Shown here: positions 13,571 through 59,786 of the stretch, piece after piece
How the letters are laid out: every line of letters begins with the position of its first letter
How positions within the stretch are numbered: position 1 is the first letter of the stretch
NCBI RefSeq assembly: GCF_027889715.1
Contig: NZ_JAPJZH010000021.1
Coordinates: 1 to 64,000, forward strand
DNA length: 64,000 nt
Direction of reading: 5' to 3'
Source of the DNA: Allohoeflea poritis
GTDB lineage: Bacteria; Pseudomonadota; Alphaproteobacteria; Rhizobiales; Rhizobiaceae
Translations under genes and position numbers: made by a program
The notes under the pieces: model-generated
The model's database searches: none
The model's input: the letters and a program-made list of their open reading frames with translations, nothing else
Told to the model about the DNA's origin: nothing

Positions 13571-13584
13571 TCACGCTTGCGTGA
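13571..13584 (+). promoter_or_regulatory. TCACG-N4-CGTGA dyad upstream of L,D-transpeptidase cassette 1
   Basis: TCACGCTTGCGTGA is a perfect inverted repeat ending 46 nt before the ATG at 13631. The same dyad occurs at exactly the same distance before the paralogous cassette near 59.7 kb. Downstream, both promoters also share TGG at +12 and CGnTA at +32 (counted from the dyad end), possible core promoter elements. It is probably the operator of a dimeric regulator I cannot name. Confidence 0.5.
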
Positions 13585-13630
13585 CCGGTCGGCAATGGAA
13601 TTGTTGGGATTTATACGTTAGATTTGCCCC

Positions 13631-13972
13631 ATGAGGGGTTTTGTTGTTGTTCTTATACTGTGCGCGTTTGCCGTGGCCCAATCGGCCACAGTATTGGCAC
13701 CCGCGTCCGCAGCATCCACGATGGTATCTGTTGTCGCGCAAACCGATGACGCCGGCGAACCGGTCATCCTGACCGCGCCCAGGGACATGTGTTGCTACTA
13801 TACGCTGATGAAGCGCATGAAACGCGCCGGGTCCTGCCAGTCCGACTGCACATTTCTGCCGGCCCAGGCGGATATCAGCTTCGTCAAGCCGATCGCCATC
13901 TATTCGATGAGCGAAACGCATCCGGTGGCGCCGCCCGGCAGTCACAAGCTTCTGCGCCCGCCCATTTCATGA
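13631..13972 (+). CDS. Small secreted Cys-motif protein (CC...CxxDCxFLPA), copy 1
   Basis: A 113-residue protein with an N-terminal signal peptide (about residues 1-28, cleavage near ASAAS). The mature part has Cys54-Cys55, then Cys69-x3-Cys73 in CQSDCTFLPA, and ends RPPIS. The protein near 59.5 kb shares the CC pair, 12-13 residues, CxxDCxFLPA and the final RPPI, so the two are paralogs. I know no described family. The L,D-transpeptidase gene starts 56 nt downstream on the same strand. Four cysteines in a small periplasmic protein suggest disulfides or a metal site; this is inference. Confidence 0.68.
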   Translation: MRGFVVVLILCAFAVAQSATVLAPASAASTMVSVVAQTDDAGEPVILTAPRDMCCYYTLMKRMKRAGSCQSDCTFLPAQADISFVKPIAIYSMSETHPVAPPGSHKLLRPPIS

Positions 13973-14028
13973 CCTCGCCAATCGGAGCGAACACGCCGCT
14001 CCACCATTTGCAATGTCATTGAAACGGA

Positions 14029-14610
14029 ATGAGATCCATGATCAGCAGACGAAATCTTTTGCTTGCGGCATCGGCCTTTATGGTCGCCCAGAAAGCCGGC
14101 ACCGCCGCCGCCCACCACACCAAGAAATACAAGAATTTCAAGGTCGATCCGCGCCACAAGCCGCAGATGGTGCGCTTTACCGGATACGAGGCCGGCACCA
14201 TCGTCGTCGATCCGCGCAACCACTTCCTCTATCTCGTCGTCTCGCCTTTCAGGGCGCGCCGCTACGGCGTCGGCGTCGGCAAGGCAGGGCTTCGGTTCAA
14301 GGGCGTGGCCTCCATCGAGCGCAAGGCTAAATGGCCGAGCTGGCGGCCGACGGACAATATGATCCGCCGTGAGCCGAGAAAATATGCCCGCTACGCCAAG
14401 GGCGTTCCGGGCGGTCCCAACAATCCGCTCGGCGCCAGGGCGCTCTATCTTTACCGGGGCGGCCGCGACACCTATTACCGCATCCACGGCACCACCCAGC
14501 CCGATACGATCGGCCGCTCGGTGTCGAACGGCTGCATCCGCATGGTCAATGACCATGTCATCGATCTCTACGAGCGCGTGCCGCTCGGCACCAAGGTCGT
14601 GGTGATCTGA
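14029..14610 (+). CDS. L,D-transpeptidase (YkuD), Tat-type signal
   Basis: A 193-residue exported YkuD-domain enzyme that would form 3-3 peptidoglycan crosslinks or attach proteins to peptidoglycan. The active site is His153 in RIHGTTQP and Cys169 in SVSNGCIRM. The N-terminus has SRRNLLLAASAF, a twin-arginine motif, so export is probably through Tat. The NNPLGARALY block is typical of the proteobacterial ErfK/YbiS group. ATG 14038 is an alternative start with a better-spaced GGAA. It probably forms an operon with the small Cys protein upstream and is convergent with the hydantoinase-like gene. Confidence 0.9.
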   Translation: MRSMISRRNLLLAASAFMVAQKAGTAAAHHTKKYKNFKVDPRHKPQMVRFTGYEAGTIVVDPRNHFLYLVVSPFRARRYGVGVGKAGLRFKGVASIERKAKWPSWRPTDNMIRREPRKYARYAKGVPGGPNNPLGARALYLYRGGRDTYYRIHGTTQPDTIGRSVSNGCIRMVNDHVIDLYERVPLGTKVVVI

Positions 14611-14622
14611 GGCGGATTTTCT

Positions 14623-16620
14623 CTAGCCGTTTTCACGGACAATGCGCGGTCGCCCGTCGGCGGTCGCAACCACCCGCGCCTCGACCAGGCTGCGAATGCC
14701 TTCGATCTCCGGCGCCTTGACGGTTTCCCGCAGGGTCACGTGAGTATCTTCAGCGCCGGCGGCGAGGGCCTCGTCGCGGGCTGCGATCCCGGCGATTTCG
14801 CGTGCCCGGTTCATCGCCTCCTCCTCATTGCGGAAGCGCTCGCTCAGCCCGGCGCCGTTGACGGCGAACACATCTTCCTGCGGCGCCGTCACGAAAACGG
14901 TGACCGTCGAGCGCACATGGCCGACGACCGCGCCGATGGCGTTGGCGACGTCGGCATCGTCCGGAATGGCGCTGTCGCTCGCAAGCATCGCGGCGATGTC
15001 GGGATAATAACTGCCCGCCGAGGCGCCGAGGCCGACAAGCGGCCGGTCAAGCGTCAGGTGGAAGCGCACGATGCCATGGACACGTTCGAGCGCCCGCGCG
15101 ACCGACCGCGACCGTGCCGCGTCGATCTGCGCCTCGCCCTCATCCGCCAGACAGGCCGACAGGATCATCTCGCAGGACTGCCGTGTCAGGCGGTCGACGG
15201 TCATCTGCGCCAGCGTCTCGGCATCTTCGGCAATGGGTTTGCCGGCGCCGCTCTTGCGCCGCGCCAGAAGTTGAGCACCGAGACCGGCGGCCTCGCCGTT
15301 CCAATTGTCCTGGCGATCGAGCACATGCATGGCATCGGACGGCGTGAAGCCGGCCACATGGACGAGGCCGCGCATTACCAGCCGGTCGAGCGTCGCCTTC
15401 TGCGATGCCGATGTCAGGATCCTGTCGAGCGGCGCAAGGCCTGCCGTGATCCGTTCGAACAGTCCCAGTTCCTGGGCCTGCAGCCCGGTCGCGAACCGTT
15501 CCGGAACGCCCGTGCGGCAAGCGAACCGCCCGTCGAGACGACCGGCATATCCGGCATCGAGCTGCCGCTGCAGGGCGGCGATCACCGGTTCGGGATCGAT
15601 ATGGGCGGCAAGGCTGAGCGGCATTAGCCGGCGTGGGCCGAGTTCCAGCCGTGTCTCCAGACCGGTCTCGCTGACATGCACCTCCGAATCGCCGCCAAGG
15701 CCGAATGTGTGCATGGCCACCGCCTGCACCATGGTGCGGAAGCCGCCGACAACAGCGCCGTCCGGGTCAAGCCGCGGCTGCCCGTCCTCAAGGATGGCCA
15801 CATCCGTCGTCGTGCCGCCGATGTCGGAAACCACCGCATCGCTCATGCCGGTCAGGTGGCGCGCCCCGACAAGGCTGGCCGCCGGGCCGGACAGGATGGT
15901 CTCGATCGGCCGCTGGCGCGCCAGTCCGGCCGAAATCAGGGCGCCGTCGCCCCGCACCACCATCAGGGGCGCCTTGATGCCGCTCGTGTCCAGATGACCT
16001 TCCGTCGCTTCGATCAACCGGTCGATCATGGCGACGAGCCGGGCATTGAGCAGCGTCGTCAACGCCCGACGCGGACCGCCGAGCCTGGACGACAATTCGT
16101 GGCTGCAGGTGACCGGAAGGCCGGTGCGCTCGCGGATGAAGTCGCGCACGGCGATTTCGTGCGCCGGATTGCGCACGGCGAAATAGCCGGCGACCGAAAA
16201 GGCGGCGACCTCTTCCTTCAGCGTGTCGATCGTGGCCTCGAGCGGACCGAGATCGAGCGGCGTCTCGTTGCCATGCACATTGTGGCCGCCCGGCAGAAAG
16301 GTGACGGGGTCGCCGCCCAATGCCTCGGACAGCCCGTCGCGCCGCAGGTCTTCCTGCTTGAAGCCGATCATGATCAGCGCGACCCGCCCGCCCTGGCCTT
16401 CCACGAGCGCATTCGTCGCAAGCGTCGTCGACAGGCAGACGAGTTCGACCGATGCCGCGGCCCTGTCGGCGGCGGTCAGGACCTTCGACACCGCCTCGCC
16501 GATCCCGACCGCCAGATCATGGCGGCTGGTCAGCGCCTTGGCCTTGGCGAGAACGCCGTCCTCTTCGCTGTAGAGGACAGCATCCGTATAGGTGCCGCCG
16601 GTGTCGATCCCGAGAAACAT
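14623..16620 (-). CDS. Hydantoinase/oxoprolinase family protein (HyuA-like)
   Basis: A 665-residue protein with the ASKHA-type N-terminus FLGIDTGGTYTDAVLY, a central SDIGGTTTDVAIL phosphate loop and the Hydantoinase_A domain. Relatives are ATP-dependent N-methylhydantoinases, 5-oxoprolinases or acetone carboxylase beta subunits. These normally need a HyuB-type partner, and none is present here. The substrate is therefore undetermined. The gene is 9 nt downstream of uppP on the same strand, which makes co-transcription likely although a shared function is not obvious. Confidence 0.85.
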   Translation of the reverse strand: MFLGIDTGGTYTDAVLYSEEDGVLAKAKALTSRHDLAVGIGEAVSKVLTAADRAAASVELVCLSTTLATNALVEGQGGRVALIMIGFKQEDLRRDGLSEALGGDPVTFLPGGHNVHGNETPLDLGPLEATIDTLKEEVAAFSVAGYFAVRNPAHEIAVRDFIRERTGLPVTCSHELSSRLGGPRRALTTLLNARLVAMIDRLIEATEGHLDTSGIKAPLMVVRGDGALISAGLARQRPIETILSGPAASLVGARHLTGMSDAVVSDIGGTTTDVAILEDGQPRLDPDGAVVGGFRTMVQAVAMHTFGLGGDSEVHVSETGLETRLELGPRRLMPLSLAAHIDPEPVIAALQRQLDAGYAGRLDGRFACRTGVPERFATGLQAQELGLFERITAGLAPLDRILTSASQKATLDRLVMRGLVHVAGFTPSDAMHVLDRQDNWNGEAAGLGAQLLARRKSGAGKPIAEDAETLAQMTVDRLTRQSCEMILSACLADEGEAQIDAARSRSVARALERVHGIVRFHLTLDRPLVGLGASAGSYYPDIAAMLASDSAIPDDADVANAIGAVVGHVRSTVTVFVTAPQEDVFAVNGAGLSERFRNEEEAMNRAREIAGIAARDEALAAGAEDTHVTLRETVKAPEIEGIRSLVEARVVATADGRPRIVRENG

Positions 16621-16629
16621 CGCTCTATC

Positions 16630-17436
16630 CTAAGGCCAGAAATAAAGGCCGATCAGCCCGGCCGTGCCGACAGCGATGCGCCACCAGGCGAAAAGGGCGA
16701 AGCCGTAGCGCGAAACGAAATCGAGCAGCGTGCGCACCACGATGACCGCGGTGATGAAGGCGGCGACAAAACCGACCGCGATCACCGTCACATCATTGGC
16801 CGAAAGCTGGTTGTAGTTCTGGTAGAGATCATAGGCGAAGGCGCCCGCCATGGTCGGCATGGCAAGGAAGAAGGAGAACTCGGCGGCGGAGCGCTTGTCG
16901 GTGCCAAGCAGCAGCGCGCCGGCGATTGTTGCGCCCGAGCGCGACGTGCCGGGGATCATGGCAAGACACTGGATGAGGCCGATCTTCAACGCCAGCGCCA
17001 GCGGAAAATCCATCACATCGGTATAGCGCGGCGGGCGCTTGATACGGTCGACCGCCATCAGCACGAAACCGCCGAGGATGAGCACGATGCAGATCAGCAG
17101 CGGCGTTTCGAACAGCACCGTCTTGATGAAACTGTAGGCGATGACGCCGATCACCGCCGCCGGCAGGAAGGCAAGCAGGATCGCGAAAACGAAGCGCCGG
17201 GCGCGCCAGTCGGTCGGAAAGGCCAGCAGAAGCTGCCACAGCCGCGTGAAATAGACCGAAAGGATCGCCAGGATCGCACCGAGCTGGATCAGCACCTCGA
17301 AGGTCTTGCCGGTCGATTCGAAACCCAGGAAATGCCCGGCGAGCAGCAGATGACCGGTCGACGAAACGGGCAGAAACTCCGTCAGCCCTTCCAGAAGGCC
17401 AAGCAGCAACGCGCCGGTGATTGTCTGTTCAGCCAT
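16630..17436 (-). CDS. uppP: Undecaprenyl-diphosphatase UppP/BacA
   Basis: A 268-residue polytopic enzyme that recycles undecaprenyl diphosphate to the monophosphate carrier for peptidoglycan and O-antigen synthesis. The two signature motifs are [17 protein letters not shown] (catalytic Glu) near the N-terminus and [10 protein letters not shown] (catalytic Arg) in the middle. ATG 17436 (MAEQTIT) fits the family start; upstream codons in frame are not conserved. It diverges from fzlA across a region with a strong 13-bp inverted repeat. Confidence 0.95.
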
Positions 17437-17509
17437 CAAGAATTCCTGCTGCGTCCCGATTTTCAAGATGAAGCCATGCCGGATCGGCGCCATACGACCC
17501 GGCGGCGGC

Positions 17510-17543
17510 CATCTTGTTCAAACGCTTTCATTTGAACAAGATG
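17510..17543. repeat. Perfect 13-bp inverted repeat between uppP and fzlA
   Basis: CATCTTGTTCAAA (17510-17522) and TTTGAACAAGATG (17531-17543) are perfect reverse complements around an 8-nt loop. The element is 73 nt before the uppP start and 75 nt before the fzlA start. It could be an operator serving both genes, or a hairpin in one leader. There is no following T-run on either strand, so a simple terminator is unlikely. Confidence 0.75.
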
Positions 17544-17618
17544 CGCTCTATAGCTTTTTCGCCCGTTATATCCAGATAATTTTGCCGAATCAGCTTCGTG
17601 GATAAGATTTAAGACAGT

Positions 17619-18311
17619 ATGCCGACGCTTTATCACCATCCGATGTCCGCAGCGTCCCGTTTCGTGCGGCTGGTGCTTTACGAATATGAACTTGAAGCCG
17701 AACTGGTCGAGGAGCGGCCCTGGGAGCAGCGCCCGGACTTTCTTGCGCTGAATCCGGCGGCGACCCTGCCCGTTTATGTCGACGATTCGCTGCAGGCGGT
17801 GTGCGGTGCGACGGTCATAGCCGAGTTCATCGACGAGGTCTTCGGGGTTTTCAAGCGTGACCGCAGGCTGCTTCCGGACGAGCCGTTCCGGCGCGCCGAG
17901 GTGCGCCGCCTGACCGAGTGGTTCCTGGTCAAGATGGAGCAGGACGTGACGCGCTACTTGGTGCGTGAGCGGGTCTTCAAGCTGCTGATGCCGAAGGAAA
18001 ACGGTGGCGGCGCCCCGGATTCGAAGGCGCTGCGCACGGCCCGCGCCAACATCCGTCAGCACATGCGCTATCTGGACTGGTTGACCGGCAGCCGTGACTG
18101 GCTGGCGGGAAACACGATGAGCTACGCCGATTTTGCCGCGGCCGGCGCGCTGTCCTCGCTCGACTATCTCGGCGAGGTCGGTTGGAGCGAGACGCCGAAC
18201 GCCAGGGACTGGTATCAGCGGATGAAGTCGCGCCCCTCCATGCGCCCGATTCTCGCCGACCGGATTTCCAGGATCACGCCGGTGTCCCACTACGCGGATC
18301 TGGACTTTTGA
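17619..18311 (+). CDS. fzlA: GST-fold cell-division protein, probable FzlA
   Basis: A 230-residue GST-like protein with a thioredoxin-fold N-terminus (YHHPMSAASRFVRLVL) and an all-helical C-domain. The C-terminal tail SHYADLDF is the ending I recall for alphaproteobacterial FzlA, which binds FtsZ, curves its filaments and is needed for constriction. It lacks a clear catalytic Ser/Cys for glutathione. Neighbours uppP (lipid carrier) and queG match the usual order in Hyphomicrobiales. It is followed by queG after 3 nt. A generic GST is the alternative, which I think less likely. Confidence 0.8.
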   Translation: MPTLYHHPMSAASRFVRLVLYEYELEAELVEERPWEQRPDFLALNPAATLPVYVDDSLQAVCGATVIAEFIDEVFGVFKRDRRLLPDEPFRRAEVRRLTEWFLVKMEQDVTRYLVRERVFKLLMPKENGGGAPDSKALRTARANIRQHMRYLDWLTGSRDWLAGNTMSYADFAAAGALSSLDYLGEVGWSETPNARDWYQRMKSRPSMRPILADRISRITPVSHYADLDF

Positions 18312-18314
18312 GCG

Positions 18315-19469
18315 ATGCCGGCGCGTCCGCACAGTCCGCAGCGGTCCGAAAGGCTGAAGGCCTTTCTGGTCGAGGAGGCGCGCGCCGCCGGCTTTGACGT
18401 TGCCCGAATTGTCGCGCCCGATGCCATCGAGGACTACGCTCCCGCCGGCCTCGACGCCTATCTGCAGGCCGGCCGTCACGGCACCATGCAATGGATGCAG
18501 GAGACGAGAGACCGGCGGAGCGACCCGAGGGTTCTTTGGCCGCAAACGCGCTCGATCCTGATGCTCGGCATGAATTACGGGCCGGACCGCGATCCGCTGG
18601 AGGCTCTTGCGCGGCGCGACAGGGCGGTGATCTCGGTCTATGCGCAGAACCGCGACTATCACGACCTGATCAAGGGAAAGCTGAAGGGCGTCGCCGGCCG
18701 CTTCGCCGCGCGCGCCGGCGCCGACGTCAAGGTGTTCGTCGACACCGCGCCGGTCATGGAAAAACCGCTTGCCGAACAGGCCGGCATCGGCTGGCAGGGC
18801 AAGCACAGCAACCTCGTCAGCCGCGCGTTCGGCTCCTGGCTTTTCCTGGGTTCGATCTTCACGAGCGAGCCGCTGCCGTCCGATGCGCCGGAGACCGATC
18901 ATTGCGGCTCCTGCCGCGCCTGCCTCGACATCTGTCCGACGGATGCCTTTCCCGCGCCCTACCAGCTCGACGCGCGCCGCTGCATCTCCTACCTGACCAT
19001 CGAGCACAAGGGTCCGATCCCGCATGAATTCCGGCCCGCGATGGGCAACCGGATCTATGGCTGCGATGACTGCCTGGCCGTGTGCCCGTGGAACAAGTTT
19101 GCCAGCGATGCGCACGAAGCCAAACTGAAGGCACGCGACGAACTGAGGGAGCCGGCCCTTGCCGATCTTGCCTGCCTAGACGATGCCGCCTTCCGGGCGC
19201 TCTTTTCCGGCTCGCCCGTCAAGCGCATCGGCCGCGACCGCTTCGTGCGCAATGTATTGATCGCCTGCGGCAATTCCGCCGATCCGTCGCTGGCCGGCCA
19301 TTGCCGCGAGCGCCTGAACGATGCCAGCCCGCAAGTGCGCGGCGCTGCGGTCTGGGCCTTGTCGCGCTTGCTGGAGCGCGAGGAACTCCTTTCACTGGCA
19401 GGTCAGGCGAAGCAGGAACCGGATGACACGGTGCGCCACGAGTGGCATAGAGCCCTGGAAACGACATAG
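18315..19469 (+). CDS. queG: Epoxyqueuosine reductase
   Basis: A 384-residue cobalamin-dependent iron-sulfur enzyme that reduces epoxyqueuosine to queuosine in tRNA. The two [4Fe-4S] motifs are visible: [17 protein letters not shown] and CISY...[14 protein letters not shown]-terminal HEAT-like helices that hold the tRNA follow. The gene lies between fzlA (3 nt) and an epimerase gene (12 nt) in one operon. Confidence 0.95.
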
Positions 19470-19481
19470 GAAATCGAGCGT

Positions 19482-20354
19482 ATGCGTCTCTTTGTTTTCG
19501 GTGCCGGCTATTCCGGCCGGGCGATCGCCGGGGAACTTGCCGGCCGGGCCGAATGGGCAGGCGGCACCAGCCGCAGCGCGGACAAATTTGCCGCGCTGGA
19601 ACGGAACGGTCTCGATCCATTCCTTTTCGACGGCGACAGGATTTCCCCCGAGCTCGCAGCAGCGCTCGCCCGTGTCACGCATCTGGTCCAGTCCATCGCG
19701 CCGGACGAGGAGGGCGATCCACTGTTGCGGATTTCCGGTTCCGGCCTGAAGGGCCTGATGCCGAACTTGCAATGGGTGGGCTATCTTTCGACCGTCGGCG
19801 TCTACGGCGATCACGATGGCGCCTGGGTCGACGAGGAAACGGCATGCAAGCCGGTTTCGCGGCGCTCGGTCGATCGGCTGCAGGCCGAAACCGCATGGCT
19901 CGAAGCGTCAGAAAAGAGCGCGGTTCCGGTCGCCATATTGCGGCTGTCCGGAATTTACGGCCCGGGCCGCAACGCCTTCGTCAATATCGGCCGTGGACGG
20001 GCGCGGCGTCTGGTCAAGCCCGGTCAGGTCTTCAACCGCATCCATGTTTCAGACATCGCCGGCGCGAGTGCGCATCTGATCGCAGAGCAAACCGGCGGAA
20101 TCTGGAACGTGACCGACGATCTGCCGGCCCCGCCGCAGGATGTGGTTCTTTATGCCTGCGAGCTGATGGGCGTCGAGCCGCCGCCGGAGATCGATTTCGA
20201 TACCGCCGACCTTTCGCCGATGGCGCGGTCCTTTTACGGCGAATGCAAGCGCGTCTCCAACCGCAAGCTGAAGGAAAGCGGCTATCAATTCCGATATCGC
20301 GACTACAGAAGCGCGCTTGAAGCCCTCTGGCGCGATGGCAATTGGGCCGCTTAA
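19482..20354 (+). CDS. SDR/NAD-dependent epimerase-like protein (YeeZ type)
   Basis: A 290-residue Rossmann-fold protein. Its dinucleotide motif is GAGYSGRAIA at residues 7-16, a variant of GxxGxxG. LSTVGVYGDHDG and LRLSGIYGPGRN are hallmark segments of extended SDRs, but the catalytic YxxxK is not clear; SVDRLQAE occupies the expected place. It may therefore be a regulator or an atypical reductase. It is the third gene of the fzlA-queG operon and is followed by an exported hydrolase 82 nt later. Confidence 0.8.
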   Translation: MRLFVFGAGYSGRAIAGELAGRAEWAGGTSRSADKFAALERNGLDPFLFDGDRISPELAAALARVTHLVQSIAPDEEGDPLLRISGSGLKGLMPNLQWVGYLSTVGVYGDHDGAWVDEETACKPVSRRSVDRLQAETAWLEASEKSAVPVAILRLSGIYGPGRNAFVNIGRGRARRLVKPGQVFNRIHVSDIAGASAHLIAEQTGGIWNVTDDLPAPPQDVVLYACELMGVEPPPEIDFDTADLSPMARSFYGECKRVSNRKLKESGYQFRYRDYRSALEALWRDGNWAA

Positions 20355-20436
20355 GCGCCCCTTGGCCCGGCGGTGGGATTGTGCCACCATCGCCGCAAAG
20401 CCGACGAAAAAGATGATCGATTTGGGAGGATCCGCG

Positions 20437-21339
20437 ATGAAGGGCAGGCTCACATATCTGGCAATCGTTTTTTGTGCTGCGCTCCTGCTGGCCGTCCCCG
20501 ATGGCAGCGTCAACGCCGCCGAGAAGAACGTTCAGTTCCGGGTCGATGGAAAGTCGGTCGTCGGAACGCTGGAAACGCCGGACAACGCGGCGGAACCGGC
20601 ACCGGTCGTGCTCATGCTTCACGGTTTCACCGGCTCGCGCGACGAACTGCCCGTCAAGGACACCGATGAGGGCGTCTTTGCCCGCACGGCCCGGCAGCTG
20701 GCGGAAAATGGCTATGCCAGCCTGCGCATCGATTTTCGCGGGTCTGGCGAAAGCCAGGGCGCCTGGGAGGACACCACCTTCTCCGGCCAGATCGCCGATG
20801 CCGTGGCGGCAATCGACTGGCTGAAAAGCAGCCAGGAGATCGACAACGACAACATCTCAATCCTCGGCTGGAGCCAGGGCGGCCTTGTCGCCGCGCACGC
20901 CGCGGCCGAGCGGCCGGATGTCAAATCGGTGATCCTGTGGGCCCCGGTGACCAATCCGATGGCCACCTATTCGGGTCTGCTCGGCAGCGAGACGGTGATG
21001 AAGGCCATCGCCGGCGCGCCGGAAACGCCGCATACGGTCAAGCTGCCCTGGGGTGTCGACACGACGCTCAAGGGCGCCTTCTACCAGGAGATGCCCGTCA
21101 CCAGCCCGGCGGCGGCCATCGCCGGCTATGAAGGCCCGCTGATGGTCATTGTCGGCACCAGGGATACGCTGGTGGTGCCGCAGCCGGCGGCCGGGCAGAT
21201 CCTGCTGAACTATCATCCCGGCAAACAGCAGCTTGTGGTCTTCGACACCGATCATGTCTGGGACGCGTTTTCAGGTCCTGGAACGCTCGACGGGCAGATG
21301 ATCCCGACCACCCTTAAATGGCTCGAGGAAAATCGCTAG
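20437..21339 (+). CDS. Exported alpha/beta hydrolase
   Basis: A 300-residue protein with a Sec signal peptide (MKGRLTYLAIVFCAALLLAV, cleavage near VNAA) and an alpha/beta hydrolase core. The oxyanion region is HGFTGSRDE, the nucleophile elbow is LGWSQGG, and the late Asp and His are in GTRDT and DTDHVWD. Relatives are periplasmic esterases or dienelactone-hydrolase-like enzymes; the substrate is unknown. ATG 20437 is supported by GGGAGGA just upstream. A longer frame reaches 20317 but overlaps the epimerase and loses the signal peptide. Confidence 0.85.
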   Translation: MKGRLTYLAIVFCAALLLAVPDGSVNAAEKNVQFRVDGKSVVGTLETPDNAAEPAPVVLMLHGFTGSRDELPVKDTDEGVFARTARQLAENGYASLRIDFRGSGESQGAWEDTTFSGQIADAVAAIDWLKSSQEIDNDNISILGWSQGGLVAAHAAAERPDVKSVILWAPVTNPMATYSGLLGSETVMKAIAGAPETPHTVKLPWGVDTTLKGAFYQEMPVTSPAAAIAGYEGPLMVIVGTRDTLVVPQPAAGQILLNYHPGKQQLVVFDTDHVWDAFSGPGTLDGQMIPTTLKWLEENR

Positions 21340-21345
21340 CCCGGG

Positions 21346-34716: not shown

Positions 34717-35361
34717 CTACTGGATTACGACAACCTTGGCGTCCTTGCCCGGCTTTACGCGGGAGTAAAGGTCGATGACATCCTGATTCATCAGCCGGAT
34801 ACAGCCGGATGAGGCCGCCGTGCCTATGGATTTCCATTCCGGCGAGCCGTGCAGACGGTACAGCGTGTCCTTGCCATTCTTGTCGAACAGGTACAGCGCC
34901 CGCGCACCCAGCGGATTGCTCAGCCCCGGATCCTGCCCGCCATTGGCGTATTTCTTCAGCCGCGGCTCGCGGGCGATCATCTCTTTCGGCGGATGCCAGC
35001 GCGGCCAGGGCTGCTTCCATTTGACATAGGCCTCGCCTTCCCAGGCGAAACCGGCACGCCCGACGCCGATGCCGTAACGCACCGCCTTGTTGCCGGGCAG
35101 GATGAAATAGAGGTGCCGCTGCTTGGTGTTGACGATGATGGTCCCGGGTTTTTCCTTGGTGAAATAGGAAACGATCTGGCGATGGTACTTTTTCGGAACC
35201 CGGTCGATCGGCACGGCGGGGATATTGTAGCCGCCGTCCTTAACCGCGCCATATTCACTTGTATATATCTGCCGCGATATTTCCGGCCCGCCGCTGACGC
35301 AGCCCGACAGCGCCAGCACGGCGGCCAGACCCAATCCAGATAAAGTTCTGCGAAATTTCAT
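34717..35361 (-). CDS. L,D-transpeptidase (YkuD), lipoprotein
   Basis: A 214-residue YkuD enzyme with active-site His171 (RLHGSPEW) and Cys187 (AASSGCIRL). The signal peptide ends in the lipobox LALSGC with Cys21, so it should be a lipoprotein anchored in a membrane leaflet. ATG 35361 has AGGGGC upstream; an in-frame start at 35406 would put residues before the signal peptide. It closely resembles the copy at 58.5 kb (PKKYHRQ / PKQYYRR, NPLGARALY) but has no small Cys protein beside it. Confidence 0.92.
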   Translation of the reverse strand: MKFRRTLSGLGLAAVLALSGCVSGGPEISRQIYTSEYGAVKDGGYNIPAVPIDRVPKKYHRQIVSYFTKEKPGTIIVNTKQRHLYFILPGNKAVRYGIGVGRAGFAWEGEAYVKWKQPWPRWHPPKEMIAREPRLKKYANGGQDPGLSNPLGARALYLFDKNGKDTLYRLHGSPEWKSIGTAASSGCIRLMNQDVIDLYSRVKPGKDAKVVVIQ

Positions 35362-35599
35362 GCTTGCCCCTCTGCGGTCCGAATCGCCGGAATGTCCACG
35401 CCGCAATTTTTTACACTATGGTTTATTTTTTATTACACTCGCCAATTCAAGGTCTGGTGGCATGTAAATATTTCGTGAGCGTGCACTTGCCGGGCGAATA
35501 TGGCATTCCTGCAACGGCTTTGCGGGCTTGAAAAGGCGTCGCCGCCATGTCAGCCTGCGCGCAGAACATTAAAAGAACATCCGCAAGGCGTATTGGACA

Positions 35600-52835: not shown

Positions 52836-52884
52836 GCTTGCGTGGTCGCTGCGCGGGCAGCGGCCGCCATCTGCCGGGGGAGCG

Positions 52885-53436
52885 ATGGCCATGACGGACA
52901 GGACGCCCGATGTCGACGAGATCGCCGCCTCCGAGCGGCTGGGCGGCGACCGGTATTTTGCCTTTGCGATACTGGTGCTGTCGGCCGGTCTGCTCGCCCT
53001 GATCGGCGATCAGACCCAGTGGAAGGGCAACAAGGGCCTTCTCAACGAGCCGGCGTTCTGGCCGGGCTTGAGCCTGATCGGCATGACGGTCTGCGCCGCC
53101 CTCTATCTCGTACAGTCCCTTTCCGCGCACCGCTTTGCCGCATGGGACCGGCGTGAATTGCTGGTGTGGGTCCGCTGCATCGAATATCCGCTCTGGTTCA
53201 TGGCCTATGTCTTCATCGTGCCGGTCGTCGGCTATCTGCCGACTTCCGTGATCTTCTGTCCGCTGCTGGCGCGGCGCATGGGCTACCGCTCGGCGCGCGC
53301 GCTGTTGTCGGCGGCCTTGATGGGCGCAGCCATCGTCATGCTCTTCAAGGGGTTGCTTCAGGTCCGCGTCCCGGGCGGTGCGGTCTACGAAGCCCTGCCG
53401 GACGGGCTGCGCAATTTCATGATCCTCTATCTGTGA
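52885..53436 (+). CDS. tctB: Tripartite tricarboxylate transporter small membrane subunit
   Basis: A 183-residue protein with four membrane segments and the general TctB layout: a first helix near FAFAILVLSAGLLALIG, a WPGLSLIGM segment, and a C-terminal pair. The start at 52885 follows GGGGGAG; an ATG two codons later is equally possible. It lies between tctC and tctA (9-nt gap). Confidence 0.88.
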   Translation: MAMTDRTPDVDEIAASERLGGDRYFAFAILVLSAGLLALIGDQTQWKGNKGLLNEPAFWPGLSLIGMTVCAALYLVQSLSAHRFAAWDRRELLVWVRCIEYPLWFMAYVFIVPVVGYLPTSVIFCPLLARRMGYRSARALLSAALMGAAIVMLFKGLLQVRVPGGAVYEALPDGLRNFMILYL

Positions 53437-53445
53437 GCGGCGGCC

Positions 53446-54936
53446 ATGGACGTTCTGTTTGACGGATTATCGATCTTGGCCCGCTGGGATGTCGTTGCAG
53501 CGCTGCTGATCGGCTCGGTCGGCGGCGTCATCATCGGCGCCATCCCCGGCGTCGGCGCGGCGGTGGCGATCGCCATCCTGCTTCCTGCCACCTTCTCCTT
53601 CGATCCGATCGTCGGCTTGACGGTTCTTCTCGGCATATATGGCTCGTCCATGTATGGCGGCTCGATACCGGCGATCCTGATCAACACGCCCGGCACGGCC
53701 GTCAACGCGCTCACCACCTATGACGGCTATCCGATGACCAGGCGCGGCGAGGGACGGCGCGCTCTCAGCCTTGCCTATTCGGCATCCTTCTTCGGCGGCA
53801 TATTCTCGGTCCTGTGCCTTATCGTCCTGTCGCCGCTGCTTGCTGCCATCGCGCCGCATTTCGGCTCGCGCGAGATCTTCCTGGCGGCGCTTCTGGGTCT
53901 TGTGCTTGCCGTCGTCGTGCACCGCGGACAGACGGTCATCGCCGCCTTCCTGGTGTTCTTCGGCATCTTCATCAACACCATCGGTCTGCATACGGCGACG
54001 CTCACGCGTCGCTTCACCTTCGAGCTGAATTTCCTCGCCTCGGGCATCGACCTCATTGTCGTTGTCCTCGGGCTGTTCGCGCTCAGCCAGGCCTTTGTCC
54101 TGCTTGTCGCGCGCGACGACAGCCCCAAGGCCGCGCCGGTCAGCGGCGGGCTTTTCCAGGGACTGGGCGAATTGTTCAAATTTCCCGGGACCGCCTCGGC
54201 GTCCTCCGGTTTCGGCGTCGTGATGGGCATGATCCCCGGTGTCGGCGAGTTCATGGCGCAGTTCCTGTCCTATACTTTCGCGCAGCGCCGCTCCAAGACG
54301 CCGGAAAAATTCGGCGACGGCGCGCCAGAGGGTCTGATTGCGTCCGAGGCCGCCAACAACGCGGTGCCGGGCGCGGCGATGATCCCGCTGCTGGCGCTTG
54401 GCGTGCCGGGCGAGGCGCTGACCGCGATGATGCTGTCGGTGTTCTACGTGCACAATGTCGTGCCCGGCCCGCAGCTCTTCCAGAACCAGATGGACTTCGT
54501 CATGGCGCTCTATCTGGCGCTGCTGATCCTCAATGTGATGGTGTTGATCTTCCTGCTGTTCTCCACCAACACGCTGTTGCAGGTGATCCGCATTCCGACC
54601 CGGTTCCTTGGCGTCATGATCCTGACGCTTGCCTTTGTCGGCGTCTACTCCCTGCGTAACAGCGTCTGGGATTGCGCCATCGCCGCCGTTTTCGGCTTTA
54701 TCGGCTTTGTCTTGAAGCGGCTGCAACTGCCGATCGTTCCGATCATCCTCGGCATGGTGCTCGGGCGCATCATGGAGGTGAAGCTCAGGGCCTCCATGGC
54801 GCGGGTGAAGACGCCGCTGGACTTTATCGACCGGCCGATCGCCTTCATCCTGTTCTGCGCCATCGTCATCATCATCGTCATGCACATCAGGACACAGCTG
54901 AAGAGCCGCAAAACGGAGACAAACCAAAATGCTTGA
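53446..54936 (+). CDS. tctA: Tripartite tricarboxylate transporter large membrane subunit
   Basis: A 496-residue protein with about 11-12 membrane segments. Two inverted repeats hold the conserved GAIPGVGAAVAIAILLPATF and GMIPGVGEFMAQFLSY elements. YGSSMYGGSIPAILINTPG is a family signature. It is the ion-coupled permease of the Tct system. The stop overlaps the ALDH start by 8 nt. Confidence 0.95.
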   Translation: MDVLFDGLSILARWDVVAALLIGSVGGVIIGAIPGVGAAVAIAILLPATFSFDPIVGLTVLLGIYGSSMYGGSIPAILINTPGTAVNALTTYDGYPMTRRGEGRRALSLAYSASFFGGIFSVLCLIVLSPLLAAIAPHFGSREIFLAALLGLVLAVVVHRGQTVIAAFLVFFGIFINTIGLHTATLTRRFTFELNFLASGIDLIVVVLGLFALSQAFVLLVARDDSPKAAPVSGGLFQGLGELFKFPGTASASSGFGVVMGMIPGVGEFMAQFLSYTFAQRRSKTPEKFGDGAPEGLIASEAANNAVPGAAMIPLLALGVPGEALTAMMLSVFYVHNVVPGPQLFQNQMDFVMALYLALLILNVMVLIFLLFSTNTLLQVIRIPTRFLGVMILTLAFVGVYSLRNSVWDCAIAAVFGFIGFVLKRLQLPIVPIILGMVLGRIMEVKLRASMARVKTPLDFIDRPIAFILFCAIVIIIVMHIRTQLKSRKTETNQNA

Positions 54937-56413
54937 CCAGCAGCGTATCGATACCCTGCGAAGCGAACCCGTAGCGGCGCGAAAACTGTTCATTGACGGT
55001 CAGTGGCAATCCGGCAGCGGCGGCGTGCTCGAGGTGCTGAGCCCGATCGACGGGTCCGTGCTGACGACCATCGAGCGCGCATCCGCCGATGACATGACGC
55101 GGGCGATCGCTTCAGCGCGTACCGCCTTCGACGATGGCCGCTGGTCGCGGCTTGCCCCGGCCGGCCGCAAGAAGGTGCTGCACCGGCTCGCCGACCTGAT
55201 CGAACGCGAGGCGCTGGCCCTGTCGGTACTCGGCGTGCGCGACAACGGCACGGAAATCAACATGGCCTTCAAGGCCGAAAGCGGCTCGGCCGCCGGCACA
55301 TTCCGCTACTACGCCGAGGCCATCGACAAGGTCTATGGCGAGATCGCGCCGACAGATGAAAACATCCTGGCGCTGGTTCACAAGGAGCCGGTCGGCGTCG
55401 TCGGCGCGATCGTGCCCTGGAATTTCCCGCTGATGATCGGCGCCTGGAAGATCGCTCCGGCCCTGGCCGCCGGCAACAGCATCGTCCTGAAGCCCGCGGA
55501 AACCGCGTCATTGTCGCTGCTGCGGCTGGCCGAACTCGCATCGGAGGCCGGCCTGCCGGACGGCGTCTTCAATGTCGTCACCGGCAAGGGTTCGGTCGTC
55601 GGCGAGGCGTTGGCCCTGTCGATGGATGTCGACGTGCTGGCTTTCACCGGTTCGGGAGCGACGGGCCGTCGTCTGCTTGAATATGCGGCGCGTTCCAACC
55701 TGAAACGTTGCTATCTGGAGCTCGGCGGCAAGTCCCCCAACATCGTCTTTGCAGATGCGCCGGACCTCGACCGGGCGGCCGGCGTCTCGGCATCCGGCAT
55801 CTTCCGCAATTCGGGTCAGGTCTGCGTCGCCGGCTCGCGCCTGCTGGTCCAGCGCGAGATCCATGACGATTTCGTTGCCGCGCTGGCAAAGCGCGCCGAG
55901 GCCTTCCGGGTCGGCGATCCGCTCGACCTTGGCAGCGATATCGGCGCCGTCAACAGCCTCGCCCAGCTCGAAGGTGATCTCGCATTCGTCGCCACGGCTG
56001 AGAAGGAGGGCGCCGAGCGCGTGACCGGAGGCAACAGGATCCTCGAGGACACAGGCGGCTATTACATGCAGCCGACCGTGCTGACGGGCGTCGGCCCGCG
56101 CGATACGGTCGCCCAGGAGGAAGTGTTCGGCCCGGTGCTGGCCGTGATCCCCTTTGACAGCGAGGACGAAGCCATTGCCATCGCCAATGACAGCAATTTC
56201 GGACTTGCCGGCGCGGTCTGGACGTCCGACCTTTCCCGCGCCCATCGCATGGTCCGGCGCGTCAAGACGGGTGTCATCCACGTCAACACCTATGGCGGCG
56301 CCGATGCCACCGTGCCGCTGGGCGGCGTGAAACAGTCCGGCAACGGCCACGACAAGTCGCTGCATGCGCTGGACAAGTATTTTGATCTGAAGACGGCCTG
56401 GATTCAGCTCTAG
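54929..56413 (+). CDS. NAD(P)-dependent aldehyde dehydrogenase
   Basis: A 494-residue ALDH with PWNFP, FTGSGATGR, Glu in LELGGKSPNIVF and Cys in NSGQVCVAGSR. It resembles the gamma-(glutamyl)aminobutyraldehyde / betaine-aldehyde group. Given the divergent omega-aminotransferase, it may oxidise the aldehyde that enzyme makes; this is inference from position. It overlaps tctA and is followed by the Tm-1-like gene after 22 nt. Confidence 0.92.
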   Translation: MLDQQRIDTLRSEPVAARKLFIDGQWQSGSGGVLEVLSPIDGSVLTTIERASADDMTRAIASARTAFDDGRWSRLAPAGRKKVLHRLADLIEREALALSVLGVRDNGTEINMAFKAESGSAAGTFRYYAEAIDKVYGEIAPTDENILALVHKEPVGVVGAIVPWNFPLMIGAWKIAPALAAGNSIVLKPAETASLSLLRLAELASEAGLPDGVFNVVTGKGSVVGEALALSMDVDVLAFTGSGATGRRLLEYAARSNLKRCYLELGGKSPNIVFADAPDLDRAAGVSASGIFRNSGQVCVAGSRLLVQREIHDDFVAALAKRAEAFRVGDPLDLGSDIGAVNSLAQLEGDLAFVATAEKEGAERVTGGNRILEDTGGYYMQPTVLTGVGPRDTVAQEEVFGPVLAVIPFDSEDEAIAIANDSNFGLAGAVWTSDLSRAHRMVRRVKTGVIHVNTYGGADATVPLGGVKQSGNGHDKSLHALDKYFDLKTAWIQL

Positions 56414-56435
56414 ACCGAAGAAACGGGATTGCGCC

Positions 56436-57668
56436 ATGTCTGACAAGACGATCCTCGTCATAGGCACCTATGACACCAAGGACGATGAACTGAACTATGT
56501 GGCCTCCCGCATCAAGGCGCAGGGCGGCAAGGTCCTGACCATGGATGTCAGCGTGCTCGGCGATCCGGCCACCCCGACCGACTATTCCAAACACGCGGTC
56601 GCCGAGGCCGGTGGATCGTCGATCCGGGCGGCGATCGATTCGGGCGATGAAAACACCGCCATGCAGATCATGGCCGAAGGCTGCGCTGCGCTCTGCCTGA
56701 AACTGTGGCACGACCGCATGTTCGATGGCGTGATCATGCTCGGCGGCTCGATGGGAACGGATCTGGCGCTGGATGTGACGGCCGCGCTGCCCGTCGGCGT
56801 TCCGAAATACATCGTCTCAACGGTCTCTTTCTCGCCCATGCTGCCGCCGGAACGCCTGGCGCCGGACGTGCAGATGATCCTGTGGGCCGGCGGTCTCTAC
56901 GGGCTCAACGCGATCTGCAAATCCTCGCTGTCGCAGGCCGCCGGTGCCGTGCTCGGCGCGGCGCGCGCGGTCGAGACGCTGCCGCGCGAGCGTCCGCTGG
57001 TCGGCATGACGAGCCTCGGCTCCAGCGCCTTGCGCTACATGCTGCGGCTGAAGCCGGCACTGGAGGAGCGCGGTTTCGACCTCGCCGTCTTCCACGCGAC
57101 GGGCATGGGCGGGCGCGCCTTTGAAGGCCTTGCAGCTCAGGGCGCTTTTGTCTGCGTCATGGATTTCTGCACCCAGGAGGTCGGCAATCACATTCACGGA
57201 TCGAACATATCGGCCGGACCGGACAGGCTGACGTCGGCGGGCCGTGAGGGTGTGCCGCAGATCGTCTCGGCCGGTTGCTACGATCTTGTCGACATCGTCG
57301 CCTGGCAGGGTGTTCCCGACAAATGGTCCGGCCACCCGAACCACACCCACAACCGGCTGATCAATTCCATTGTGCTGAATGACGAGGAGCGCCGCGCCGT
57401 TGCCCGCGCCCATTGCGAGCGCCTTGCCGGAGCGCAAGGCCCGACGGCGTTCCTGATGCCGAACAGGGGCTTCGGCGAATGGGACCGGGAAGGCGCTGAC
57501 CTTCATGATCCCGCAGGTCTCGGTTCTTTCCTGGATGAAATGCGCAGCCATGTGCCGGCAAATGTCGATTTCAGGGAACTCGACTGCCACATAAACGACG
57601 ATGGGTTTGCCGACGAAGCGCTTCAGATCTTCGACCGCTGGCGCGAGGAGGGGGTTATCTCCGTGTAA
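56436..57668 (+). CDS. Tm-1-like ATP-binding domain protein (UPF0261)
   Basis: A 410-residue protein of the UPF0261/Tm-1-like family. TILVIGTYDTKDDELNYV opens the N-domain; MLGGSMGTDLA and FHATGMGGRAFE are conserved loops. Relatives occur in catabolic operons and as the N-part of plant Tm-1; they bind ATP but their bacterial reaction is unknown. As last gene of the Tct operon it is probably an uncharacterised enzyme of the imported acid's catabolism. A small TTAGCG-CTAC-CGCTAA hairpin lies just after the stop (57675-57690). Confidence 0.88.
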   Translation: MSDKTILVIGTYDTKDDELNYVASRIKAQGGKVLTMDVSVLGDPATPTDYSKHAVAEAGGSSIRAAIDSGDENTAMQIMAEGCAALCLKLWHDRMFDGVIMLGGSMGTDLALDVTAALPVGVPKYIVSTVSFSPMLPPERLAPDVQMILWAGGLYGLNAICKSSLSQAAGAVLGAARAVETLPRERPLVGMTSLGSSALRYMLRLKPALEERGFDLAVFHATGMGGRAFEGLAAQGAFVCVMDFCTQEVGNHIHGSNISAGPDRLTSAGREGVPQIVSAGCYDLVDIVAWQGVPDKWSGHPNHTHNRLINSIVLNDEERRAVARAHCERLAGAQGPTAFLMPNRGFGEWDREGADLHDPAGLGSFLDEMRSHVPANVDFRELDCHINDDGFADEALQIFDRWREEGVISV

Positions 57669-57686
57669 CGGCTCTTAGCGCTACCG

Positions 57687-58403
57687 CTAATTCACCGCAT
57701 CGTCATCGCATGGCCAGCTTTGCGGCGCTTTGAGACCGGCCGGCAGGACCGTCTTGGAATCGCCGCAGCTCAGTTCAAGCTGCGCATCGGAAAGACCGAG
57801 CGCATTGCTGAGATCCTGTCCCTCGAAACGCGCTAGAAACAGATAGGCGGAATCGAAATTGACGCCGGTGCCCAGCCTGGCGGTGCGAAAATCGGCCCGC
57901 GCCAGGATGGCGAAGTTGAAATCAACGTTCCCAAGGCTGGTGCCGGAAAAATCCGACCGTCCGAGTTCTGCTTTTGAGAAGTCGACATTCTTCAATGTCG
58001 ACCCCGTGAAATCGGCTCTTTGCATCTCCGATTTCTCGAAATCCGCGCCCGTCAGATTTGTGTTGTGAAAGCGTGTGCGGTAGCCGAGCGCGCGCGACAG
58101 GTTGGCGCCCTTGAGGCTTGAATCGTCAAGATGCGAGCGCACCAGGGTCGCCTTGGTCAGGTTCGCACCGTCGAGATTGGAATCGCGCAAATCCGTTGTC
58201 GAAAGATCAGTGCCGCTCATATTCGCGTCACTCAGATCGGTGCCCCGCAGAATAAGGTTGCTCTTTCGGCAGTCAGCCCAATCAACGCCCGCCCTGGGGC
58301 TGTCGGAACATCCCGCCATTGCTGGCGTGGTGAAACCCGTCATCGCGGCGATGGCCGCGGTCGCAAGGGTTGTCGGGATAAGGCTTTGCCGAGAGACGGA
58401 CAT
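57687..58403 (-). CDS. Exported pentapeptide-repeat protein
   Basis: A 238-residue protein with a signal peptide (cleavage after AMA, about residue 29) and some 25 tandem A(D/N)Lxx-type repeats from about residue 50 to 200. These form a right-handed quadrilateral beta-helix. A Cys pair near the start (GCSDSP, ADCRKS) and another at the end (SCGDS, SWPC) may close the helix with disulfides. It lies 110 nt downstream of the L,D-transpeptidase gene on the same strand, so an envelope role is likely. No DNA-gyrase protection role should be assumed for an exported protein. Confidence 0.88.
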   Translation of the reverse strand: MSVSRQSLIPTTLATAAIAAMTGFTTPAMAGCSDSPRAGVDWADCRKSNLILRGTDLSDANMSGTDLSTTDLRDSNLDGANLTKATLVRSHLDDSSLKGANLSRALGYRTRFHNTNLTGADFEKSEMQRADFTGSTLKNVDFSKAELGRSDFSGTSLGNVDFNFAILARADFRTARLGTGVNFDSAYLFLARFEGQDLSNALGLSDAQLELSCGDSKTVLPAGLKAPQSWPCDDDAVN

Positions 58404-58513
58404 GGGATCGCTCCAAGGGGCTGTGAACCGGATGGAAAGGCCGGTTTGATGTCAACATAATGAAGATATGTGTGCGGAGCCGCCCGTTGCAAGTCGGTTC
58501 CGCACAAGGATCT

Positions 58514-59191
58514 TCAAGTCACGACGATTTTCGCGTTCGTCGGCACCCGCCCGTACAGATGAATGACGTCCTGGTTCATCATCCGCACGCAGCCGCTCGA
58601 GACCGCCTTGCCGATTGTCCAGTATTCCGGCGTGCCGTGAATGCGGTACAGCGTGTCGACATTGCCCTGGAAGATATAGAGCGCCCGCGCACCCAGCGGA
58701 TTGTTGAGGCCGGGCGGCATGCCGCCGTTCCGCACGCTCCATTTTTCCAGTTCGGGTTGCCGGCGGATCATGCTGTCCGGCGGCGTCCATTTCGGCCACG
58801 CCTGCTTCCAGGCGACCCGTGCGCGCCCGGACCATTCGAAGCCGGCGCGTCCGAGCCCGACGCCGTAGCGCATGGCCCGCCGGTCGCTTTCCACCAGATA
58901 GAGATAGAAGGTGCGGGTGTCGACAACGATGGTTCCGGGTGCTTCCGGACCGCGATAGGCCACCTGCCGGCGGTAATACTGCTTCGGCACCCGGCTGATA
59001 TCCACCGCCGGGATTGGGAAGCGCTCGTCCCGAACGGGACCGTACATCAGTGCATAATTGCTTGTGGCGCGCGGCAGCACGACGTCTGTGTCGGGCTCTG
59101 CGGTCGACGTGCAGCCGGCAAGCGCGAGCCCGCCGAGGCTTGCCGAGCCTGTAAGGAACTGCCGGCGGTTCATTTGGTTTGCGAATGCCAT
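58514..59191 (-). CDS. L,D-transpeptidase (YkuD), Tat-type lipoprotein
   Basis: A 225-residue YkuD enzyme with His185 (RIHGTPEY) and Cys201 (AVSSGCVRM). The N-terminus combines a twin-arginine motif NRRQFLTG with the lipobox LALAGC (Cys27), so it should be a Tat-exported lipoprotein. It is the second L,D-transpeptidase in the window preceded by a small secreted Cys protein; the gap is 196 nt. The gap holds a hairpin AGCCGG/CCGGCT (59359-59376) without a T-run. Confidence 0.92.
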   Translation of the reverse strand: MAFANQMNRRQFLTGSASLGGLALAGCTSTAEPDTDVVLPRATSNYALMYGPVRDERFPIPAVDISRVPKQYYRRQVAYRGPEAPGTIVVDTRTFYLYLVESDRRAMRYGVGLGRAGFEWSGRARVAWKQAWPKWTPPDSMIRRQPELEKWSVRNGGMPPGLNNPLGARALYIFQGNVDTLYRIHGTPEYWTIGKAVSSGCVRMMNQDVIHLYGRVPTNAKIVVT

Positions 59192-59387
59192 GGCTTTGTT
59201 TCCCGATTTCGAGATAGACCCGTGGCTGCTTGCCCGGATCGTCGCTCATGCTGATCCATAGTCTGGCGAAGACTGTTCAACCCCTGTTGGCAGTGGCAGG
59301 CCGTCCCGCGGCCAAGTCAGCAAACGAGGCTGAAATTCTTCGCATTGGTGATTGGTGGAGCCGGCGGCAACCGGCTGATGTCGCAGG

Positions 59388-59726
59388 TCAGACGATGGGA
59401 GGACGAAACTGTGCCTTGCCCGCCAGCCAGTCAGGCAACAGGCTGACCGTCCCGCCGTAACCGGTACCGAGGCCGGTAATGTTCATGTCGCAGCTTGCCG
59501 GCAGGAAAGAGCAGTCCACGGAACAGGGCGTCGCCGATCCCGATTTGGCAATCGCGTCCGGGCAGCATTGTGTGGTCGGCTTCGCCGCCGCATCGCCGGC
59601 GTTGATGAAGGCCGCTTCCTGAAAAGCGGATGCCTTTGCCACGGACTGCGTGAACGGTCCTTGCGCCGCCGAAGCGACGGTCGCCGAAAACACCAGCAAC
59701 AGTAGCGCACAAAGCCAGTTCATCAT
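59388..59726 (-). CDS. Small secreted Cys-motif protein (CC...CxxDCxFLPA), copy 2
   Basis: A 112-residue protein with a signal peptide (about residues 1-20, cleavage near VASAA). Cys54-Cys55 are followed by Cys68-x3-Cys72 in CSVDCSFLPA; an extra Cys79 is present and the chain ends FRPPIV. It is a paralog of the protein at 13.6 kb: same length, same CC position, same CxxDCxFLPA and RPPI end, otherwise diverged. Two consecutive ATG codons (59726, 59723) could start it; the first gives the same 46-nt distance to the upstream dyad as in copy 1. Confidence 0.68.
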   Translation of the reverse strand: MMNWLCALLLLVFSATVASAAQGPFTQSVAKASAFQEAAFINAGDAAAKPTTQCCPDAIAKSGSATPCSVDCSFLPASCDMNITGLGTGYGGTVSLLPDWLAGKAQFRPPIV

Positions 59727-59772
59727 GGCTGGTTCTTAGCGCAGTGGACGTTCAATTGCCACCGCGTCCGGA

Positions 59773-59786
59773 TCACGCAGTCGTGA
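59773..59786 (-). promoter_or_regulatory. TCACG-N4-CGTGA dyad upstream of L,D-transpeptidase cassette 2
   Basis: Read toward the gene, TCACGACTGCGTGA ends 46 nt before ATG 59726. It matches the dyad before cassette 1 at 12 of 14 positions including both half sites. The rest of the 156 bp to dedA shows no other clear element. Confidence 0.5.

Follow-up and report, generated by a model that had tools for sequence, protein, structure and literature searches.

In Rhodobacter capsulatus, CutF, a small exported protein encoded in cutFOG, binds copper, its own export is then delayed and an mRNA stem can unfold (PMC9973294, PMC8456105). CruR of Bordetella pertussis, a DUF2946 protein, is the leader of a copper-related operon; 45 residues, conserved within one or two, lie between its CXXC and RAPP motifs, a 5-residue insertion impairs regulation (PMC9426467), and its arrest has been described in vitro (PMC12992588). 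The same literature presents prolyl arrest motifs of the form RxPP, where x can be proline, and ApdP from Sinorhizobium (PMC12992588, PMC10951233). Here we analyse a stretch of 64,000 nucleotides (nt) from Allohoeflea poritis (contig NZ_JAPJZH010000021.1, positions 1 to 64,000), referred to as the window, in which two small exported open reading frames (ORFs) each precede a gene for an L,D-transpeptidase (LDT). We consider it likely that these ORFs are nascent-chain leaders of the CutF/CruR class, probably copper-sensing, which switch on the downstream LDT, and not working periplasmic proteins. The two cassettes are laid out as follows.

13631 to 13972, plus strand: leader ORF 1, 113 residues (aa), with a signal peptide, Cys54/55, Cys69/73 and a C-terminal RPPIS; stop codon TGA at 13970-13972
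13790 to 13849, plus strand: leader 1 codons of Cys54, Cys55, Cys69 and Cys73, a candidate metal or thiol sensor, at positions conserved in a 23-member leader alignment
13955 to 13969, plus strand: leader 1 codons of the C-terminal RPPIS, a candidate stalling motif
14029 to 14610, plus strand: LDT 1, a YkuD protein with RR near its N-terminus and catalytic SNGCIR; likely start 14038
59388 to 59726, minus strand: leader ORF 2, 112 aa, with a signal peptide, Cys54/55, Cys68/72 and a C-terminal RPPIV; stop codon at 59388-59390
58514 to 59191, minus strand: LDT 2, a YkuD protein with a Tat-like signal peptide and SSGCVR; likely start MNRR at 59173

A previous sequence-only reading of this DNA had proposed the two exported ORFs with these residues and coordinates, a YkuD gene 3' of each on the same strand, and an inverted arrangement of the two cassettes about 45 kb apart; all of this was confirmed when the sequence was read again, including the gaps between leader and LDT (56 nt in cassette 1 and 196 nt in cassette 2, as annotated). 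Both enzymes match the YkuD family PF03734 well above its cut-off of 23.4 bits (LDT 1, E 1.7e-21, 77.8 bits; LDT 2, E 1.6e-20, 74.6 bits), and the catalytic motif HG...SNGC of YkuD LDTs is present. LDT 2 attains the NCBIfam TAT cut-off and the RR of LDT 1 was seen by eye, while comparison with relatives favours starts at 14038 and 59173 over the annotated ones. The closest solved chain to LDT 1 is 6v45 (E 5.5e-66); this entry is deposited as the carnitine-operon oxidoreductase CaiA, a name that looks wrong given its closeness to LDT 1. The genome holds 16 YkuD genes, 10 of which were recognised by our script, and a leader stands before two of these 10, both in the window. A third YkuD gene of the window (34720-35406, minus strand) has no leader-type ORF in front of it.

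The leaders have several of the features by which CutF-like proteins are defined (PMC9973294): ORFs of less than 150 aa (113 and 112) with an N-terminal signal peptide, and a Pro-Pro pair (PP) within the last 15 residues. Their N-terminal hydrophobic segment was detected with a crude hydropathy rule, and leader 1 has an N-terminal helix in its AlphaFold model. Both also carry CC and CxxxC at conserved positions, which makes these cysteines candidates for metal binding. The second motif reads CQSDC in leader 1 and CSVDC in leader 2, followed in each by xFLPA, and the pattern C-x2-D-C-x-F-[hydrophobic]-P, scanned in its DNA form, has two sites in the 5.58-Mb genome, namely the two window leaders (the same pattern read backwards, our control, occurs once). 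Leader 2 is also the sole other genome match of leader 1 at E<=10 (E 0.004), and congeners have both cassettes as well, so that the shared motif is more than chance. The motif itself needs revision: CC and the terminal RPPI are indeed in both proteins, while FLPA is absent as a constant across relatives, which keep CC, CxxxC and (R/K/P)PP(I/R/K). Searches of Pfam and NCBIfam with the leaders gave sub-threshold matches only. Among these, IGFL, an animal growth-factor family (leader 1, E 0.0033; best E 0.00057, in 4 of 23 leaders), was set aside as a coincidence of cysteine pattern.

Single-leader searches matched 6 and 13 of 151 genomes, which means the genus plus a few outliers. With both window proteins as queries they gave 12 credible leaders, 11 of which have a YkuD gene downstream (one past an intervening gene), and this is how the adjacency check proposed earlier turned out. 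Frames at L025, L026, L030, L031 and L032 were rejected as leaders, being devoid of leader features. The twelfth, L019, a homologue of leader 2, sits directly after a P-type ATPase gene; its genome is fragmented, and its best match to a P0004-type LDT lies near the edge of another contig.

A search starting from the enzyme extended this picture. We searched named genomes with an alignment of relatives of LDT 1 (68-81% identical to it), kept the best 80 of 573 relatives, and scored as a leader any ORF of 60-175 aa with a hydrophobic N-terminus, PP in the last 15 aa and an end no more than 350 nt upstream of the LDT. Five of the 63 raw leaders (L074, L099, L103, L104, L113) were removed by eye, which left a leader immediately upstream in 58 of 80 loci chosen by their LDT alone; because only the best 80 of 573 were kept, the figure holds for close relatives of LDT 1. 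The functional link between leader and LDT that had been suggested from the window is thereby supported. Leader-bearing loci span Hyphomicrobiales and Rhodobacterales, including Rhodobacter capsulatus SP108 (L095). R. capsulatus is said to have five CutF-like sequences, and its LDT leader may be one of them. Gaps between leader and LDT are mostly 30-79 nt, with long gaps at L073, L094 and L097 due to mis-called LDT starts.

Eleven of the other 22 loci have their leader farther upstream, where it precedes a P0004-type LDT (nine were checked, and L089 and L091 are identical to L088 over the stretch compared). For P0004-type LDTs as such, a leader was found at no fewer than 9 of the 30 best-matching loci, a lower bound since the leaders of L131 and L134 were missed through a mis-called LDT start and L133 begins near a contig end. 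The two window cassettes have diverged and carry two LDT subfamilies, other genomes contain each of the cassettes, and they are not a recent duplication.

Some loci show a larger arrangement. In L088, L099, L103 and L113 (about 200-3560) the recurrent order is leader, P0004-type LDT, DsbA-like gene, PpiC-like gene and second LDT, which looks like an envelope operon for copper or thiol stress. We also counted PP near the C-terminus in other ORFs (35/144) as a background rate and rejected it as such; 30 of these 35 have Cys 36-43 residues before PP. Seventeen of them were inspected: nine stand before a P0004-type LDT and four (L080, L095, L101, L117) before a gene with a C..CH motif, which in L101 is cytochrome c' by Pfam. 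At L095:1538-1912 (minus strand), and at the equivalents in L101 and L117, the ORF is a further CutF-like leader, ending in LPPPR. A leader-like ORF ending in APPPRPV also lies at L115:1901 (minus strand); the small gene behind it carries a DPVCGM... motif, which we take to be of the YHS/heavy-metal type.

The leaders have diverged too far to be caught by simple searching; what stays constant is a distance. Counted back from PP, the cysteines stand at -56, -55, -41 and -37 in leader 1 and at -55, -54, -41, -37 and -30 in leader 2. Among 42 non-redundant leaders, 41 have a Cys at -40 to -42, 30 of them at exactly -41, and 27 have one at -37; those of Rhodobacterales mostly have Cys at -49 and -40. 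The spacer between Cys and PP has an in-register identity of 8.7% against 6.8% when shuffled (the same 42), with conservation limited to the Cys, to an Asp in about half of them, and to PP. PP is itself a selection criterion; 2-6 residues follow it in 60/60 leaders, where up to 13 were allowed, the residue in front of it being R in 34 leaders, P in 18 and K in 6, and the one behind it I in 23 and R in 23. A nascent chain gauged from the peptidyl-transferase centre would call for just such a spacer, fixed in length and free in sequence. The one pairwise comparison of the window leaders (E 4e-5, barely alike) would fit two unrelated small secreted ORFs that became neighbours of LDTs by accident and share a chance motif; their recurrence, with the Cys-PP spacing fixed, at 58 of 80 loci, and the presence of both cassettes in congeners, make this very unlikely on comparative data, to the point of being scarcely credible.

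The second conserved element is a predicted mRNA stem that takes in the leader stop codon.

13962 to 14027, plus strand: predicted stem of cassette 1, in which 13962-13973, with the leader stop codon, pairs with 14015-14027 around an inner hairpin at 13977-14011 (z -2.63)
59256 to 59398, minus strand: predicted stem of cassette 2, in which 59389-59398, with the first two stop-codon bases, pairs with 59256-59265

In cassette 1 the 3' arm ends just before the ATG at 14029 and 11 nt before the ATG at 14038, and a predicted stem that includes the stop codon reaches the start region there and in most of 36 loci. In 36 loci, window cassette 1 (WIN1) among them, the leader-LDT junction is more stable than its own shuffled versions (mean z -2.83), in contrast to 20 LDTs that lack an immediate leader (-0.34; p 6e-7). 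The pairing of stop arm and start arm is also specific to the locus, with -15.1 kcal/mol for cognate and -10.4 kcal/mol for non-cognate arms, a difference equalled in 0/10000 permutations (n=35, without the window cassettes); an earlier duplex run with n=36 gave -13.5 versus -8.8 kcal/mol. The duplex set omits WIN2, L094 and L097, whose gaps exceed 150 nt, and L073 is in the n=36 duplex run but not in the n=35 run, the folding comparison or the tally of pair types. All four Watson-Crick pair types occur at several stem positions, the pairs being taken from the predicted fold of each locus.

Together, the Cys-to-PP ruler and a predicted stem running from the leader stop to the LDT start region have the anatomy of a regulatory nascent peptide. 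This bears on the roles first suggested for the small protein, which were those of a redox or metal sensor, a good guess, and of a partner, substrate or inhibitor of the enzyme. A genuine periplasmic partner of the LDT, be it a chaperone, an inhibitor or a copper scavenger guarding the catalytic Cys, would explain the adjacency, the export signal and cysteine motifs able to bind metal, and CutF was itself proposed as a chaperone at first (PMC8456105). It would not be expected to have a near-random spacer of fixed length, PP 2-6 residues from its end or a stop codon inside a predicted mRNA stem, and, apart from a helix at the signal peptide and short ones around the cysteines, the AlphaFold leader model (pLDDT 64, pTM 0.21) shows no confident fold. 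Since the spacer and a confident fold are missing from what is conserved, while the ruler and the predicted stop-codon stem are kept, partner, substrate or inhibitor is not the best reading, and we consider a periplasmic partner improbable.

The junctions also speak to the direction of control. CruR, with a similar ruler, has a repressive effect (PMC9426467), so the leaders could act by transcription attenuation, the stall protecting from Rho termination and copper relieving the stall, with the LDT repressed as a result. The gap of CruR is 162 nt, whereas most leader-LDT gaps are short, as said above, and have a predicted stem to the LDT start region as in CutF; attenuation of this type is therefore unlikely, and activation is preferred.

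As to the signal, the surroundings of the leaders point to copper. A copper-type gene (multicopper oxidase, DUF411, P-type ATPase, SCO1 or PCuAC) lies within 3 kb in 26/58 leader loci versus 2/22 loci without an immediate leader (Fisher p 0.003), and in 15/35 versus 2/20 when loci are non-redundant (p 0.015). The two exceptions, L081 and L084, carry a leader before a P0004-type LDT. Taken by class over the same distance, the counts are 10/58 versus 0/22 for multicopper oxidase (Fisher p 0.054), 12/58 versus 0/22 for P-type ATPase (Fisher p 0.030) and 10/58 versus 0/22 for DUF411. Example genes of these neighbourhoods were confirmed with Pfam. Leader 2 follows a P-type ATPase gene in the congeners G003 and G004, and cassette 2 of the window holds one further element of this kind.

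59196 to 59246, minus strand: C-terminal end of a DUF411 gene remnant, about 17 codons, recognised by eye; SDDPGKQPRVYLEIGKQ

In the sister genome G007, leader 2 and the LDT are separated by a complete DUF411 gene (PF04214, E 1.3e-25; L021:2006-2452). Cassette 2, as read from this comparison, was formerly larger, with the order leader-DUF411-LDT found in G007. DUF411 is described as a possible cation-resistance or metal-binding family, one member of which responds to copper stress (PMC6444534).

The same leader architecture could nevertheless read another signal, such as thiol oxidation through disulfides of CC and CxxxC, another thiophilic metal, or the status of Sec and the translocon. The four leader cysteines form two pairs, at several loci (L095, L099) a DsbA-like gene comes after the LDT, and export status is read by Sec-dependent leaders, SecM among them (PMC9973294). 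DsbA-like proteins account for 10/117 flank ORFs in the set without an immediate leader and 2/150 in the leader set, a count that can be cited for a redox signal (117/131 and 150/185 flank ORFs were run against Pfam, the former without L089 and L091, the latter from 36 of the 58 leader loci; tallies cover the first 25 of 105, 88 and 81 families). The multicopper oxidase, DUF411 and P-type ATPase neighbours argue against a non-copper signal, as do the copper response of CutF and CruR, which are similar in layout, and the fact that, among metals, it is copper that is known as an LDT inhibitor: the effect is seen in several species, and in Vibrio none of the other metal salts tested had it (PMC11390936). 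We thus regard a signal other than copper as rather unlikely.

Since copper inhibits LDTs and the parts match those of CutF, we propose that the nascent leader reads periplasmic copper and that the answer is more LDT. The Sec-type signal peptide would take the nascent leader to the membrane during translation. When the ribosome reaches the (R/K/P)PP(I/R/K) codons, about 37, 41 and 55 residues would separate the four cysteines from the peptidyl-transferase centre, placing them just beyond the exit tunnel or in the translocon. A thiophilic metal, most likely copper, could bind them there, alter the pull on the chain and lengthen the pause at PP. The paused ribosome would cover the leader stop codon, which is part of the 5' arm of the predicted stem; the stem would melt, the LDT start region would be freed and the LDT would be translated. 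More enzyme would then be made when copper, a known LDT inhibitor, enters the periplasm. Stalling, the ligand, the copper response, the direction (activation) and the physiological purpose are what we infer in this scheme.

Several results weigh against this proposal. The RPPI of the window differs from the published RxPP, with which only the RPPP leaders of Rhodobacterales agree, and DUF2946 (PF11162) has no match in the two leaders or their own genome at E<=1, nor in 23 leaders at E<=0.1, where 6 families matched. In cassette 2 the 3' arm of the stem falls short of the LDT 2 start, which is about 65-90 nt further on, and junctions of the P0004 type are mixed as regards a stem masking the Shine-Dalgarno (SD) sequence, clear in L150 and L140 and unclear in others, WIN2, G006 and L145 for example. 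The assumed SD window is, on average, unpaired with a probability no different from that of controls (p 0.20). The arm pairing of leaderless controls is biased too, more weakly (-13.5 versus -11.3; 59/10000), and blanking the stop codon together with its neighbours leaves a modest leader signal (-9.2 versus -7.6; 1/10000). Each class of copper gene is weak singly, and the counts come partly from near-identical Rhodobacterales loci; DsbA-like genes are, as given above, commoner near LDTs without an immediate leader; and 0 of the 461 window ORFs match multicopper oxidase, DUF411, P-type ATPase, PCuAC or SCO queries (E<=1e-6), the DUF411 remnant apart. Finally, the leader 2 homologue L019 (G004, C157:44897-45199; also L160) has no LDT within 1.5 kb.

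Hyphomicrobiales are rich in LDTs, some of which are needed for viability and polar growth (PMC12729407). How these bacteria cope with copper has a candidate answer in CutF-class leaders placed directly before LDT genes, often in copper-type neighbourhoods. The wider claim, on which we find ourselves evenly divided, is that Alphaproteobacteria gate LDTs, together with the leader-LDT-DsbA-PpiC-LDT operons and hence 3-3 cross-linking, by nascent-chain copper sensing through a class of leaders whose Cys-to-PP distance is fixed. If this is true, cell-wall synthesis would, to our knowledge for the first time, be seen under translational control by a metal sensor, and the targets of metal-sensing nascent peptides, so far genes of copper homeostasis, would come to include cell-wall enzymes. 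More such sensors could also be sought, where BLAST and Pfam fail, by a simple hallmark: a C-terminal PP preceded at about 41 residues by a Cys, with a near-random spacer in between.

The earlier reading knew no description of such proteins; CutF, CruR and CopL do describe leaders of this kind, and what did stand is that their target genes are others. LDTs do not figure as leader targets in the main texts, supplements and figures aside, of PMC9973294, PMC8456105, PMC9426467, PMC12992588 and PMC10987492; in the LDT review PMC12729407, the passages on four terms make no mention of leaders. A literature search by title and start of abstract returned no paper on leader-controlled LDTs among the matches listed. 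CutF-like leaders are thus an established kind, and LDTs appear new as a target class in the main texts searched.

ApdA/ApdP and SecM resemble the window leaders in being secreted, in their C-terminal Pro-containing motif and in their place upstream of a regulated gene, and differ in that they monitor protein localization (PMC10951233, PMC12992588). We know of no cysteine ruler in ApdA/ApdP or SecM. CopL (Xanthomonas/Stenotrophomonas, NF033807), a cis-acting copper leader upstream of copA, is counted among CutF-like proteins (PMC9973294), and its profile matches 2/23 LDT leaders weakly (best E 0.02). CruR has a Cys motif at a fixed distance from a C-terminal PP motif, as here; its motifs are CXXC and RAPP, which the window leaders replace by CC/CxxxC and RPPI, so that they fall outside a CXXC/RAPP family. 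It represses by Rho termination with a dispensable signal peptide and a gap of 162 nt (PMC9426467), compared with the 56 and 196 nt of the window.

The likeness to CutF is close (PMC9973294, PMC8456105). Its motifs are CxxHC and GPPPRL and its target is a multicopper oxidase, where the window leaders have CC plus CxxxC and RPPI before an LDT. In CutF a stem-loop shields the SD sequence of the next gene, and in cassette 1 a predicted stem lies at the LDT start region; the protein downstream of CutF has a Tat signal, as has LDT 2 by the TAT cut-off, LDT 1 showing just an RR by eye. Like the window leaders, CutF is a small Sec-exported ORF (118 aa) with a Cys motif in mid-protein, a PP near its C-terminus, a gap before the next gene on the same strand, and very poor sequence conservation.

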